A stretch of DNA of 64,000 bases from Methylococcales bacterium (lineage in GTDB: Bacteria > Pseudomonadota > Gammaproteobacteria > Methylococcales > Methylomonadaceae), in NCBI GenBank assembly GCA_028715725.1, contig JAQURG010000018.1, positions 1 through 64,000 of the forward strand, in the 5' to 3' direction. Positions within the stretch are counted from its first letter, which is position 1. The number at the start of each line of letters is the position of its first letter. The notes beneath the pieces were generated by a model that was not told where the DNA came from, did no database searches, and saw only the letters and a program-made list of their open reading frames with translations. Both the position numbers and the translations under genes were made by a program. This document shows, one piece after another, positions 43,701 through 52,340 of the stretch.

Positions 43701-44447
43701 ATGGCTGGACATAGTAAATGGGCTAATATTAAACATCGCAAGGCCGGACAGGACGCCAAACGCGGCAAAATTTTCACAAAAATGCTGCGCGAAATTACCG
43801 TAGCGGTAAAAACCAGCGGTCCCGATGCCGCCAGTAATCCGGCTTTACGCACCGCAATTGATAAAGCATTGGGCGCAAATATGCGCCGCGATACTATTGA
43901 TACCGCCATTAAAAAAGCCTCCGGCGCGCTGGAAGGCGTTAATTACGAAAATATCCGTTATGAAGGCTACGGCCCTGGCGGTACAGCGGTGATAGTGGAT
44001 TGTTTGACCGATAATCGCAACCGCACCGTCGGAGAAGTCCGTCATGCTTTTACTAAAGCGGGCGGCAATTTGGGCACTGACGGCTCGGTCGCCTATCTAT
44101 TCAGCAAGGTAGGCATGCTCAGTTATGCCCCTTCCGTTGACGAGGATGCTCTCATGGAAGCCGCATTGGAAGCGGGTGCAGAGGATATCATCAGCAATGA
44201 TGACGGCTCTCTTGACGTTATGACCACACCGGAAAATTATCTGGCTGTAAAAGACGCCCTGATTGCGGCCGGTTTTGAGCCCGACAATGCCGAAGTCACG
44301 ATGCAAGCCGCAACGATGGCTGAACTGGATGCTGAAGATGCGGAAAAAATGATGCGCCTGATAGACCGCCTGGAAGATCTGGACGACGTGCAGAATGTTT
44401 ATTCCAATGCGGATATCAGCGACGAGATTATGGAAGGGCTGGATTGA
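43701..44447 (+). CDS. yebC: YebC/PmpR-family DNA-binding or translation-associated protein
   Basis: A 248-residue protein with the invariant N-terminus [14 protein letters not shown], the central [20 protein letters not shown] block near residue 93 and [12 protein letters not shown] near residue 120. Long described as transcriptional regulators, some family members have more recently been tied to translation of proline-rich stretches. A GAGAGAAATA element precedes the start. In many gammaproteobacteria yebC is followed directly by ruvC; here a reverse-transcriptase gene lies between. Confidence 0.96.
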
Positions 44448-44461
44448 TGAGTGGTTTAGGT

Positions 44462-44482
44462 TGGGCAACGTTTTTCTGCCCA
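44462..44482 (+). repeat. Short palindrome after yebC (TGGGCA / TGCCCA)
   Basis: TGGGCA (44462-44467) and TGCCCA (44477-44482) flank ACGTTTTTC. The stem can be extended by one or two bases on each side. It sits 15 bases past the yebC stop and might end the yebC transcript. Similar short palindromes are dispersed in many proteobacterial genomes, but no second copy was noticed in this window. It marks the left edge of the insertion holding the reverse-transcriptase gene. Confidence 0.4.
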
Positions 44483-44578
44483 CTACATTGATAAGTCCAG
44501 AATTATGGTGTGCAAGTTTTATGCAAGAAGACCAGCCCATTCTACCTAGCTATCCCTTGATCATCTAGGAATAAAAAA

Positions 44579-46744
44579 TTGATAGTACAGAAGGAAGATG
44601 TATTTGAAGAGAGTAATCTTGAGTTAGCATTTCAGAGATTAAAATTTGGCTCACGCCATCTTCACAAGCAGCTTTATTGGACTGCTCTTAAGGATATTGA
44701 GCCTTTTCGTAAAGACTATTTTCATCTTGTAATCGATAAATTTTCTAAGACTAAAAGGGTAGAGAACCATGGTGTAATCCGCATATATCTTCCCAAAAAA
44801 GGCGGTTTTGTTCGTCCAATTACCTATCTCGGGTTTGAAGCATTACTTATATACCAAGCTTTAGCTAACAAATTGGCAGAGCATTTCTATTGTGTAATGT
44901 CCCAAAACTACAACAAAATTACTTTTGGAAATCATTTTAATGAAAGCTTCCATTCAGAATTTATTTTCATGCCTTGGAAAAAACGGTGGAAAAGCTATCA
45001 AGATAATTCAAAGTCTCTGATTGAAGAGCGTAGTTATAACTATGTTGTGGATTTTGATATCGCTTCATTCTATGACAGCATTGACCATAAGCTTTTAACT
45101 GAAGTCCTTCGCAACCACTTGGACGAATATTTAATTGAGATACTTATATCAATTCTCCAACTTTCCCACTCAGACTTTAAACATATAAAGCCAGGTTGTG
45201 GATCAGGAATTCCTCAAGGGCCACTTGCGTCTACAGTTGTATCGGAAATATTTCTTCATTTCTATATTGACGAATATTTCTCTAAGCAAATACAAAAAAA
45301 TGAAATCGCATACATCCGATATGCTGATGATATTAGGATATTCTCTCAACAAAAGACAATAGCCAAGAAGTTTGTTACCGTACTAGATTTATTATGTAGG
45401 AATTCAGGTTTAATTCCCCAGTCATCAAAAGTTGGAGTAAGATTTTATGAAAACTCGAAAGAGTTGATTGATGAAGACGTTAAGAAATTTAGCCAATTAC
45501 AAAATCAATACAAAAAATCTGGAAAATTGAAGGAAAAGGATTCCCGCAAGGCTCTTAACTTAATGAAAGAAATGCTTAGAACAGGCGAGATAGACAAGAC
45601 CAAGTTTAGTTTTTATATATATAAGATCGAAAAAAACGATAAATTAAAAGAATTAATTTTAGCCAACATTGTGGATAGATATGAGTTTTCTGACTCTATG
45701 CTCTCTTATCTAAAAAAGCATTATTCTAATGATAAGGATGTTGTTGGGAAATTAGTGGAGCTTTTTATGGTTTATGATAACTTTTTCCTTGATTATCCTA
45801 TTTATTCATTTTTGGAGAAGTTTCGGACTGAGGTTAAATTTAATTCCAATCAGTTTTTTAGGCTGTTCAATCGTAAGGATACCGGCAAATGGTTATCTAA
45901 AATTTCTCTAATAAAGTGGGCGTTGCACTGGAAACAAAAAGAGGTATTAGATTCATTAAATCCAGATGATGTTGAAAACGTTTTGCTCAAAAGAGAGCTA
46001 TTGTGTGCACAGAGCGAATTAACAGAAAATTTAGACGTTAAACGTCAAAGAGAAATCAAAATGCTTAATGACGATCATTCAGATATGTCATTTAAATCAA
46101 TTTCTCTGATTTATGAAAGGTTGCTGTTTGAACCAGCACATGATTATTCAACCCCCAAAAATACAGGGAACCCAATAATAGAAAAGATTTTGAATGGGAA
46201 TAATCATAATCCGATTGCTGATACTTTAAGCCGGCGTGACGAAATCACGCTAAATACCACAGAATTATTCTCTAGTAATGTATTCGATGATGAGAATGAG
46301 TTTGAGCAACTGTCAGTTTTATGCAATTTTTTATTTAGCTATTACCACGACAAAAACTACCGACTTTTTATAGATAGTCTCGATCAATTCAATCATATAA
46401 TGGTAGAAAGGCTTTTCTGTTTAGAGAGAGGTAATAGGCCATCTGAAAATTATGGTGCTATTTTAAAAAATGAGAGTTTTATAAATACTGAAATGATTGG
46501 TGTTCGAGACGTGCTTCTGGAGATTCACTTACTTAGAAATGGTGAATTACATCCCAAGGACATAAAAACGGGAAAATTTCATTCTGGAGATAGGGCGTTA
46601 CAACAGAAAACTAGCGTTATAGAAAAACTATTTCCTGAATGGCTTAATGCAATCGAAGAAATTATATCTTGGCACTCTAGAAAACAGACTCTAAAAAAAA
46701 CAACGCCACACCAAAAAGCGGCGGGAGTTTATGATTGCAGTTGA
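44579..46744 (+). CDS. Reverse transcriptase-HEPN fusion protein, AbiA-like (candidate phage defence)
   Basis: A 721-residue protein starting at TTG 44579, with AGGA placed 8 bases before. The N-terminal third is a complete reverse-transcriptase palm: motif A YVVDFDIASFYDSID (D160), motif B GSGIPQGPLAST (209-219), motif C YIRYADDIRIF (D250, D251), then GLIPQSSKVGVRFY. Residues ~295-570 are charged and helical with no recognised domain. The end (~575-700) is helical and carries LLRNGELHPK, with R653-N654 and H658 fitting the HEPN nuclease Rx4-6H motif. RT plus C-terminal HEPN is the layout of lactococcal AbiA, an abortive-infection protein. No maturase, integrase, retron-type motif or template repeat is seen. 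It is AT-rich and sits alone between yebC and ruvC, 24 bases before ruvC. Confidence 0.88.
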   Translation: MIVQKEDVFEESNLELAFQRLKFGSRHLHKQLYWTALKDIEPFRKDYFHLVIDKFSKTKRVENHGVIRIYLPKKGGFVRPITYLGFEALLIYQALANKLAEHFYCVMSQNYNKITFGNHFNESFHSEFIFMPWKKRWKSYQDNSKSLIEERSYNYVVDFDIASFYDSIDHKLLTEVLRNHLDEYLIEILISILQLSHSDFKHIKPGCGSGIPQGPLASTVVSEIFLHFYIDEYFSKQIQKNEIAYIRYADDIRIFSQQKTIAKKFVTVLDLLCRNSGLIPQSSKVGVRFYENSKELIDEDVKKFSQLQNQYKKSGKLKEKDSRKALNLMKEMLRTGEIDKTKFSFYIYKIEKNDKLKELILANIVDRYEFSDSMLSYLKKHYSNDKDVVGKLVELFMVYDNFFLDYPIYSFLEKFRTEVKFNSNQFFRLFNRKDTGKWLSKISLIKWALHWKQKEVLDSLNPDDVENVLLKRELLCAQSELTENLDVKRQREIKMLNDDHSDMSFKSISLIYERLLFEPAHDYSTPKNTGNPIIEKILNGNNHNPIADTLSRRDEITLNTTELFSSNVFDDENEFEQLSVLCNFLFSYYHDKNYRLFIDSLDQFNHIMVERLFCLERGNRPSENYGAILKNESFINTEMIGVRDVLLEIHLLRNGELHPKDIKTGKFHSGDRALQQKTSVIEKLFPEWLNAIEEIISWHSRKQTLKKTTPHQKAAGVYDCS

Positions 46745-46768
46745 TACTGGCGACTTTTTTAAATAAAA

Positions 46769-47269
46769 ATGAGAATTTTAGGGATAGACCCCGGTTCAAG
46801 ACTGACCGGATACGGAATTATAGAAAACTCGCCGCAAGGTTATAAATATATAGCCAGCGGCAGCATTCGGATTAAGACTGATTATTTTCCGGATCGGCTT
46901 AAACAAATTTTTGACGGAATTCTGGAAATTGTCGATAACTATCAACCTGATCAAATGGCAATAGAACAAGTCTTTATGCATAAAAATGCGGATTCCGCGC
47001 TTAAACTGGGCCAGGCTCGCGGCGCGGCAATTTGCGCAGTGCAAGTCAAGGGTTTGCCGGTATTTGAATATGCGGCGCGGCAAGTCAAGCAGGCGGTAGT
47101 AGGGAAGGGAGCCGCTGATAAACTTCAGGTTCAGCATATGGTGAAAATTCTGTTAAATGTTCAGGGCGAGTTGTCTTTGGACGCCAGCGATGCATTAGGC
47201 ATCGGTATTTGTCATGCGCATTATCAGCAGACTGCAATCATGCTGGGTAAACAAGGTCTCTTGAGATGA
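46769..47269 (+). CDS. ruvC: Holliday junction endonuclease RuvC
   Basis: A 166-residue resolvase that cuts Holliday junctions symmetrically. The four acidic catalytic residues sit in RILGIDPGSRLTGYG (D7), MAIEQVFMHKN (E66), and DASDALGIGICH near residue 138. It is the first of ruvC-ruvA-ruvB; its stop overlaps the ruvA start (ATGA). Only 24 bases separate it from the RT gene upstream, so no obvious own promoter lies in the gap; transcription may pass through the RT gene or start inside it. Confidence 0.96.
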   Translation: MRILGIDPGSRLTGYGIIENSPQGYKYIASGSIRIKTDYFPDRLKQIFDGILEIVDNYQPDQMAIEQVFMHKNADSALKLGQARGAAICAVQVKGLPVFEYAARQVKQAVVGKGAADKLQVQHMVKILLNVQGELSLDASDALGIGICHAHYQQTAIMLGKQGLLR

Positions 47270-50534: not shown

Positions 50535-52340
50535 ATGGATAGTCAAAAAAGATTTTTGTGGCCGCTCATTTTAGCCTTAGGGTTACACCTGACACTGTTG
50601 GGCTTATTTGTCTTAAGTGCATTATATAAAACGACGGAACCGGAACCAAAGCCTATTCCGGAAATTATTCATGCGACAATGATCGATACGGCTAGCTTAC
50701 AGGCAGAAGCAGCGGCTGTAAAGAAAGCTAAAGAAGCAAAAAAGCAGGCTGCGGAAGCCAAAGAAAAGGCCGAAACCGAGGCAAAGCAAGCTGAGCTTGA
50801 AAAAGCGAGAAAAGAAGCAGAAGCGGCAGAACAAGCTAAAGAAGAAGCAGTCAGACAATCGAAGGTCGAGGCGGCAGAACAAGCCAAGGCTGAGGCCGCT
50901 AGACAGGCAAAAGCTGAGGCGGCAGAACAAGCCAAGCTAGAAGCAGCCAGACAGATAAAAGCGGAAGTAGCCGAGCAAGCCAAGCTAGAAGCGGCTGCAA
51001 AGGCTAAAGAAGAAGCTGCCAGACAGGCAAAAGCGGAAGCAGCCGAGCAGGCCAAGGCTGAAGCAGCTAGACAGGCAAAAGCGGAAGCCGCTGCACAAGC
51101 AAAGGTCGAAGCGGCGAGACAAGCCAAAGCTGAGGCGGCAGAACAAGCCAAGCTAGAAGCAGCCAGACAGACAAAAGCGGAAGCAGTCGAGCAAACCAGG
51201 CTAGAAGCGGCTGCAAAGGCTAAAGAAGAAGCGGCCAGACAGGCAAAAGCGGAAGCAGCCGAGCAAGCTAAGGCTGAAGCAGCTAGACAGGCAAAAGCAG
51301 AAGCCGCTGCACAAGCAAAGGTCGAAGCGGCGAGACAAGCCAAAGCGGAAGCGGCTGCAAAGGCTAAAGAAGAAGCGGCCAGACAGGCAAAAGCGGAAGC
51401 AGCCGAGCAAGCTAAGGCTGAAGCAGCTAGACAGGCAAAAGCAGAAGCCGCTGCACAAGCCAAGGCCGAAGCTGCCAGACAAGCCAAAGCTGAGGCGGTA
51501 GAACAAGCCAAGCTAGAGGCCGCGAGACAAGCCAAAGCGGAAGCGTCTGCAAAGGCTAAAGAAGAAGCCGCTAGACAGGCAAAAGCTGAGGCTGCTGCAC
51601 AAGCCAAGACTGAAGCTGCCAGACAAGCCAAAGCTGAGGCGGCAGAACAAGCCAAGCTAGAGGCCGCGAGACAAGCCAAAGCGGAAGCGTCTGCAAAGGC
51701 TAAAGAAGAAGCCGCTAGACAGGCAAAAACTGAGGCTGCTGCACAAGCCAAGGCTGAAGCTGCCAGACAAGCCAAAGCTGAGGCGGCAGAACAAGCCAAG
51801 CTAGAGGCCGCGAGACAGGCAAAAGCAGAAGCCGCTGCAAATGCTAAAGAAGAAGCCGCCAGACAGGCAAAAGCCGAGGCTGCCGCACAAGCCAAGGCCG
51901 AAGCCGCGAAGCAGGCAAAAGCGGAAGCGGCTGCAAAGGCTAAAGCAGAAGCCGCTGCAAAAGCCAAGGCAGAAGCTGAGGCGGCTGAAAAAGCAGAAGC
52001 CGAAGCTGCGGCACAAGCTAAAGCGGAAGCTGCCAAAGCCAGAATAGCAGCACAGCGGTCAGAAGCAGAGCAGGCGAAACTTGCCATCAAACAAAAAGTA
52101 AATCGAAGCTGGATCCGCCCTGTCTCTGCTACGACAGGTTTAAAGTGTACAATTCGGGTCAGATTGATGTCCGATGGTACAGTAATAGATGCCGAAGTTG
52201 TTTCCAGTAGCGGCGATGAAATTTTTGACAGATCGGCAGAGAATGCGGTTAACAAGGCATCGCCACTGCCAGTGCCTAAAGATAAAGAGCTGTTTGCCAG
52301 AGAATTTAGATCGTTTCAGTTTTTGTTCAACCCAAAATAA
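50535..52340 (+). CDS. tolA: Tol-Pal system protein TolA with an extra-long repeat domain
   Basis: A 601-residue protein, much longer than the 421 residues of E. coli TolA. Residues ~9-30 form the single inner-membrane helix. Residues ~55-505 are an Ala/Lys/Glu/Gln-rich helix spanning the periplasm, built of 8-residue units such as AARQAKAE. Residues ~510-601 form the globular domain III (NRSWIRPVSATTGLKC and the VVSSSGDEIFDRSAENAV region) that contacts TolB/Pal and is used by colicins and filamentous phage in E. coli. At the DNA level the 24-base units are nested in 144-base repeats. A long open frame on the opposite strand is a by-product of the repeat. Confidence 0.94.
   Translation: MDSQKRFLWPLILALGLHLTLLGLFVLSALYKTTEPEPKPIPEIIHATMIDTASLQAEAAAVKKAKEAKKQAAEAKEKAETEAKQAELEKARKEAEAAEQAKEEAVRQSKVEAAEQAKAEAARQAKAEAAEQAKLEAARQIKAEVAEQAKLEAAAKAKEEAARQAKAEAAEQAKAEAARQAKAEAAAQAKVEAARQAKAEAAEQAKLEAARQTKAEAVEQTRLEAAAKAKEEAARQAKAEAAEQAKAEAARQAKAEAAAQAKVEAARQAKAEAAAKAKEEAARQAKAEAAEQAKAEAARQAKAEAAAQAKAEAARQAKAEAVEQAKLEAARQAKAEASAKAKEEAARQAKAEAAAQAKTEAARQAKAEAAEQAKLEAARQAKAEASAKAKEEAARQAKTEAAAQAKAEAARQAKAEAAEQAKLEAARQAKAEAAANAKEEAARQAKAEAAAQAKAEAAKQAKAEAAAKAKAEAAAKAKAEAEAAEKAEAEAAAQAKAEAAKARIAAQRSEAEQAKLAIKQKVNRSWIRPVSATTGLKCTIRVRLMSDGTVIDAEVVSSSGDEIFDRSAENAVNKASPLPVPKDKELFAREFRSFQFLFNPK
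50700..52050 (+). repeat. Nested tandem repeats within tolA (24-bp units, 144-bp blocks)
   Basis: The landmark GCGGCTGCAAAGGCTAAAG or close variants recur at 50991, 51207, 51351, 51543, 51687 and 51831. The spacings are 216, 144, 192, 144 and 144 bases, all multiples of 24. This is a tandem array of 8-codon units with larger 144-bp duplications nested in it; neighbouring blocks are nearly identical, which suggests recent slippage or unequal recombination. Confidence 0.88.

Follow-up and report, generated by a model that had tools for sequence, protein, structure and literature searches.

A UG19 reverse transcriptase with a predicted C-terminal HEPN domain, a candidate one-protein phage-defense gene in a Methylococcales genome

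Introduction

Among the Abi polymerases, AbiA carries a C-terminal HEPN domain that has been called its distinguishing feature (PMC11077055). The motif of the HEPN superfamily has been described (PMC3710099), and in AbiA it reads RNSNPVSH. The AbiA domain mediates dimerization and is needed for polymerase activity, it showed no RNase activity, and R581A/H588A left defense unaffected in vivo (PMC11077055). Class 1 enzymes synthesize protein-primed, untemplated DNA (PMC9508834, PMC11077055). In DRT1, untemplated DNA assembles and holds the fused effector (PMC13275509), and the HEPN RNase held by retron Kva2 cleaves tRNA upon release (PMC13405049). Noncoding RNA templates are used by class 2 DRTs (PMC12632851).

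The group UG19 is named, as a class only, in the myRT paper (PMC8934634). A full-text search returned no other relevant paper naming it, an earlier mention of HEPN in UG19 being possible, and the literature searched yielded neither phage-challenge nor biochemical data on UG19. Here, we analyze a UG19 gene from a Methylococcales bacterium. The window is the whole 64,000-nucleotide stretch of contig JAQURG010000018.1 (assembly GCA_028715725.1, positions 1 to 64,000, forward strand) in which the gene lies. An original prediction had proposed an AbiA-like reverse transcriptase (RT) with a HEPN-type C-terminus, a candidate defense gene that might define a new AbiA-type subgroup.

Results

Assignment of the window protein to UG19

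The reading frame at 44579-46744 (plus strand) is intact, with 721 codons, a TTG start and a stop codon at 46742-46744. The features of the gene and its surroundings are listed in window coordinates; invariance refers to the 73 aligned proteins described below.

43701..44447, plus strand: yebC, left edge of the cargo pocket (ORF; yebC-ruvC layout of relatives)
44567..44570, plus strand: Shine-Dalgarno-like AGGA, 8 bases 5' of the TTG (sequence)
44579..46744, plus strand: UG19 reverse transcriptase-HEPN gene, 721 aa, TTG start (intact ORF; PADLOC RT_UG19 2.2e-112)
44579..45478, plus strand: RT domain (fingers and palm), residues 1-300 (RVT_1; superposition of the model on known RT domains with Z up to 25.6)
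45056..45058, plus strand: catalytic Asp of motif A, D160 (invariant in 73)
45203..45220, plus strand: SGIPQG motif, residues 209-214 (G210, P212, Q213 and G214 invariant in 73)
45320..45331, plus strand: YADD motif, residues 248-251 (Y248, D250 and D251 invariant in 73)
45479..46258, plus strand: predicted Abi-type alpha-helical domain replacing the thumb, residues ~301-560 (alignment with DRT6, DRT4 and AbiK, 443-448 residues, Z 17-19)
46298..46702, plus strand: predicted C-terminal HEPN domain, residues ~574-708 (four long helices; best 17 structural matches all HEPN-family, Z 7.9-9.2)
46535..46552, plus strand: HEPN Rx4H motif, R653-N-G-E-L-H658 (R and H invariant in 73)
46713..46755, plus strand: DUF2281/PIN (VapBC-like) relic, made up of the 3' end of the antitoxin and the start of the toxin and running across the RT stop (35-37 bp, 89-92% identity to such pairs in relatives)
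46769..47269, plus strand: ruvC, right edge of the cargo pocket, starting 24 bases past the RT stop (ORF; yebC-ruvC layout of relatives)

The full RT palm expected from the original prediction, with D160, SGIPQG and YADD, was recovered, and RVT_1 (4.6e-15) was the sole Pfam match of the window protein over the curated cut-off. The best profile was RT_UG19 of PADLOC (2.2e-112, 375 bits), which covered residues 5-681 and profile positions 3-557 of 562; UG21 came second among the PADLOC profiles with 157 bits. Judged by its sequence, the window protein is a member of UG19, an existing catalogued but uncharacterized group, and not AbiA. The idea of a new AbiA-type subgroup was not borne out, since the profile check returned this existing group. 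The expectation that the gene is neither a group II intron nor a retron held: the group II intron profile TIGR04416 gave 76.5 bits against a cut-off of 300, with no intron RNA match in Rfam at E<=0.5, and the retron profiles NF038233 and NF042941 gave 53.8 (cut-off 235) and 32 (cut-off 600). A Cas1-RT identity was considered and dropped.

A profile built from the 73 UG19 proteins matched the solved chains of UG15/DRT4, AbiK, DRT6, DRT9 and Drt3a, and the AbiA chain was absent from the matches at E<=1. The AbiA domain model HEPN_AbiA_CTD (PF18732) matched none of 62 UG19 C-termini at E<=5; a PF18732 scan of 398 genomes of the phylum gave no match, controls included. Thus, of the label "AbiA-like", the arrangement of RT, helical and HEPN domains stood and the sequence kinship did not: the likeness between UG19 and AbiA lies in architecture. 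The AbiA motif RNSNPVSH does resemble RNSIPDSH of two UG19 members, and the HEPN parts of AbiA and UG19 may therefore share an origin.

UG19 homologs come from many phyla

Homologs were chosen by RT motifs alone, and the HEPN region played no part in selection; the set is biased in that its members were picked for likeness to the RT domain of the window protein. A single-sequence scan of viral contigs gave no match. The query alignment of the first motif-guided viral scan included three made-up, mostly randomized rows forcing degenerate motif patterns; the resulting loci were examined as genuine sequence and only L017, a prophage UG19 (611 bits), was kept. A later viral scan yielded L077. An RT-motif alignment of L017, L077 and the window protein was then used for one scan of 84,980 species genomes, which returned 242 candidates, of which 153 were confirmed and 80 kept. 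The final alignment comprises 73 proteins, the window's included, nearly all of full length and 17-65% identical to the query; most of the other loci were truncated at contig ends or disrupted by frame breaks, an insertion or an inversion. RT_UG19 was matched by all 31 sampled homologs, which come from a set spread over many phyla. With tblastn against plasmids and phages, most matches covered residues ~1-430 and were RTs of the group II intron type, and six ORFs from plasmid, phage and relative-genome matches scored best as generic RT or Cas1-RT and were not kept.

In a tree of the UG19 set, drawn with no other UG group as outgroup, the window protein falls into a five-member clade with support 100. 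Its partners come from metagenome bins labeled Planctomycetota, Bacteroidota and Campylobacterota, a composition that speaks for transfer between phyla. The closest homolog (L080 1-1070, from an Anammoxibacter bin) is without the first ~100 residues and has an opposite-strand transposase-like gene upstream. One Desulfofustis genome bin carries three UG19 copies (L120, L130, L157), two of which have a ~1.4 kb insertion at roughly the same site (residues ~410-440).

The predicted structure combines an Abi-type polymerase with a HEPN fold

The AlphaFold2 model of the full-length protein (pLDDT 88.4, pTM 0.84) has the order RT, Abi-type helical domain and helical C-terminus. The RT palm superposes on templated RTs over residues 1-300 (Z 20-25.6), group II RTs aligning mainly over the same stretch, and the position of the thumb is occupied in the model by the long Abi-type helical domain. 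Residues 12-511 align with DRT6, DRT4 and AbiK (443-448 residues, Z 17-19), in line with the predicted helical middle of Abi type, and AbiA aligns over 391 residues with Z 19.5.

Residues 568-721 folded alone reached pLDDT 88.9. With the HEPN part alone, Foldseek E-values were weak, at 0.6 and above. In a second structural comparison, the first 17 matches were all HEPN-family proteins (Z 7.9-9.2 over 108-130 residues), followed by a designed bundle with Z 7.3. A Z of ~9 is modest for a helical bundle, and the assignment draws on the matches pointing consistently to one family and on the correct placement of the invariant motif. By computation, the modeled C-terminus has a HEPN fold, as the structure-prediction check proposed at the outset had anticipated. 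Pfam and PADLOC recognized no HEPN domain in the 62 C-termini.

R653 and H658 are the only invariant positions outside the RT domain

The alignment of 73 proteins holds 17 invariant columns, namely 15 RT positions, including all three catalytic aspartates, plus R653 and H658. No other column outside the RT domain is invariant, and the rest of the HEPN domain varies widely. In the AlphaFold2 model, helix 3 (640-653) ends at R653 and the motif spans 653-658. The predicted RNGELH motif was thus confirmed. Its spacing differs within the family: most homologs have Rx6H (RNQKTEAH, RNKLPGSH, RLESSVAH), and the clade of the window has Rx4H (RNGELH, RNEKFH, RNNELH). The rule of a polar residue after the arginine is kept in part, with N in 34 of 73 proteins and L in 19. 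Position 602, which lies in helix 2 (594-617), is mostly acidic, with D in 55/73 and N in 18/73.

Compared with the nearest homolog, identity was 68% in the HEPN domain, 73% in the RT (from residue 103) and 60% in the helical domain. Values of dN were 0.17-0.27 and dS was saturated, synonymous sites being saturated in five of six comparisons. These figures indicate that constraint acts on all three domains.

The gene sits in a cargo pocket between yebC and ruvC

The genes yebC and ruvC are close neighbors in many relatives, with 183 bases between them in one. In other relatives the gap holds a BrnT toxin, a DUF2281/PIN pair, a Uma2 nuclease or a PLD-like protein, and the yebC-ruvC gap, 44448-46768 in the window, is a cargo pocket in related genomes (L180, L181, L182, L184). 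Here, yebC ends 131 bases before the TTG start. Positions 46713-46747 are 89-92% identical to the stretch in relatives where the antitoxin gene ends and the toxin gene starts. The RT cargo thus appears to have taken the place of a toxin-antitoxin module, because the gene ends in DUF2281/PIN remains. For the same reason the final ~9 residues are of different origin: the native C-terminus is nearer residue ~705, the last ~9 codons (from ~46713) being relic read through.

The RT gene has a G+C content of 33.6%, about the lowest found anywhere in the window, whose overall value is 45.8%, and UG19 was found in none of 250 other genomes of the order and ~400 of the phylum. The best reading is that the foreign-looking gene was horizontally acquired. 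Positions 50535-52340 encode a TolA-like protein, in which Ala, Lys and Glu form a very long and regular repeat.

Among the genes directly next to the homologs, type I specificity subunits account for 5 of 110; DNA methylases, Fic, Schlafen/AlbA, AAA ATPases and integrases also occur, and no constant partner gene was found. Homologs adjoin restriction-modification genes and some sit in prophages. Neighborhoods of this kind, lacking a constant partner, fit a stand-alone defense gene. The view of the gene as a defense candidate is upheld. Closely related prophages carry UG19 with a tyrosine integrase adjoining (L017 4989-7049, L077 4983-7043 and L136), one of them in a Polynucleobacter host; these copies are apparent lysogenic-conversion cargo.

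Discussion

From the family assignment, fold, motif invariance and context established by computation, we propose that UG19 might be a one-protein anti-phage system whose fused HEPN RNase is under the control of protein-primed DNA synthesis, a model to which we give even chances by analogy with known systems. Going by the fold, the RT and Abi-type helical domain would, like Abi polymerases, use the protein itself as the primer for untemplated DNA synthesis; no conserved residue could be singled out as the priming site. Two HEPN copies might pair and build, around R653 and H658, a metal-independent RNase site. On the model of DRT1 and the HEPN retron Kva2, the attached DNA, or an assembly that it holds, would silence the RNase in the uninfected cell. 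Phage enzymes or a changed dNTP pool could disturb the DNA or the assembly and so trigger RNA cleavage, which would stop growth before the phage matures.

The main evidence against an RNase effector comes from AbiA, the closest bench-tested architecture, in which R and H are dispensable and no RNase activity was seen (PMC11077055). Of the predicted HEPN RNase motif, the Rx4H residues and the fold are retained, and the analogy with AbiA does not carry the catalysis. UG19 might instead work as AbiA does, the HEPN domain only holding the dimer and supporting polymerization, with the DNA product stopping the phage and R653/H658 retained because folding, dimer contacts or the binding of nucleic acid require them. 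We regard this as possible but doubtful. The AbiA domain dimerizes, is needed by the polymerase and tolerates R581A/H588A in vivo (PMC11077055), and both residues could also be required for dimer contacts or for binding RNA without cutting it. However, exactly the two catalytic positions are invariant in 73 proteins that are 17-65% identical to the query and otherwise variable in this domain, so that a purely structural HEPN domain in UG19 would be unexpected; moreover, both R and H are retained while the motif spacing shifts from 6 to 4.

It is improbable that the HEPN domain is an active RNase joined to an RT that copies a template, such as phage RNA or a noncoding RNA that escaped detection. 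Class 2 DRTs do use noncoding RNA templates (PMC12632851), and the palm superposes well on templated RTs, but an Abi-type helical domain sits at the thumb position, no RNA family was found near the gene in Rfam, and there is little space on either side (131 bases from yebC to the start, 24 from the stop to ruvC). A domesticated or decaying RT without an anti-phage role in this host would account for the tail chimeric with a relic toxin gene, the TTG start and the lack of a relative found in the order, but is very improbable given that every catalytic residue is intact, that dN is low and dS saturated against the nearest homolog in all three domains, and that homologs adjoin restriction-modification genes and occur in prophages.

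Taking the RNase-effector model further, we tentatively suggest, as a rather unlikely extension, that UG19 could be a one-gene toxin-antitoxin system. Untemplated DNA grown by the RT would be the antitoxin of the fused HEPN RNase, and phage enzymes attacking, unwinding or altering this DNA would trigger RNA cleavage. UG19 would then join AbiA as the second RT-HEPN family, and would be the first to depend on HEPN catalysis. Importantly, UG19 is a family separate from AbiA with an RT-HEPN architecture and with both catalytic residues kept in all 73 proteins compared. The candidate phage-defense family thereby gains a concrete testable mechanism, and in a one-gene system the role of the untemplated DNA of Abi polymerases and the control of a fused effector become testable.

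Among known groups, UG19 (RT_UG19, PADLOC PDLC03756) is by far the top profile over the whole protein, which clusters and aligns with 72 UG19-type homologs; the five-member clade of the window differs by Rx4H in place of Rx6H and by a short insertion (residues ~681-685) after the HEPN motif. AbiA of Lactococcus (PDB 8oz7) likewise has an RT-like domain, a helical domain and a C-terminal HEPN, with RNSNPVSH against RNSIPDSH in the UG19 members L122 and L150. It differs in escaping detection by the UG19 profile at E<=1, in a HEPN_AbiA_CTD unmatched in UG19, and in a HEPN domain reported inactive with dispensable R and H. The class 1 enzymes AbiK, Abi-P2, DRT4/UG15 and DRT6 share an RT with an alpha-helical domain and no thumb, but the matched chains of AbiK, DRT4 and DRT6 align no further than ~residue 511 and have no HEPN counterpart, and the reported assemblies are hexamers for AbiK and trimers for Abi-P2. 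Retron Kva2 (type IX, PMC13405049) offers RT-dependent control of a tRNA-cutting HEPN RNase, but with separate proteins, templated msDNA and a HEPN without the canonical motif. DRT1 (PMC13275509), with a class 3 RT and a nitrilase effector in place of HEPN, resembles the proposed system in joining RT and effector in one polypeptide, where the attached untemplated DNA controls the effector.
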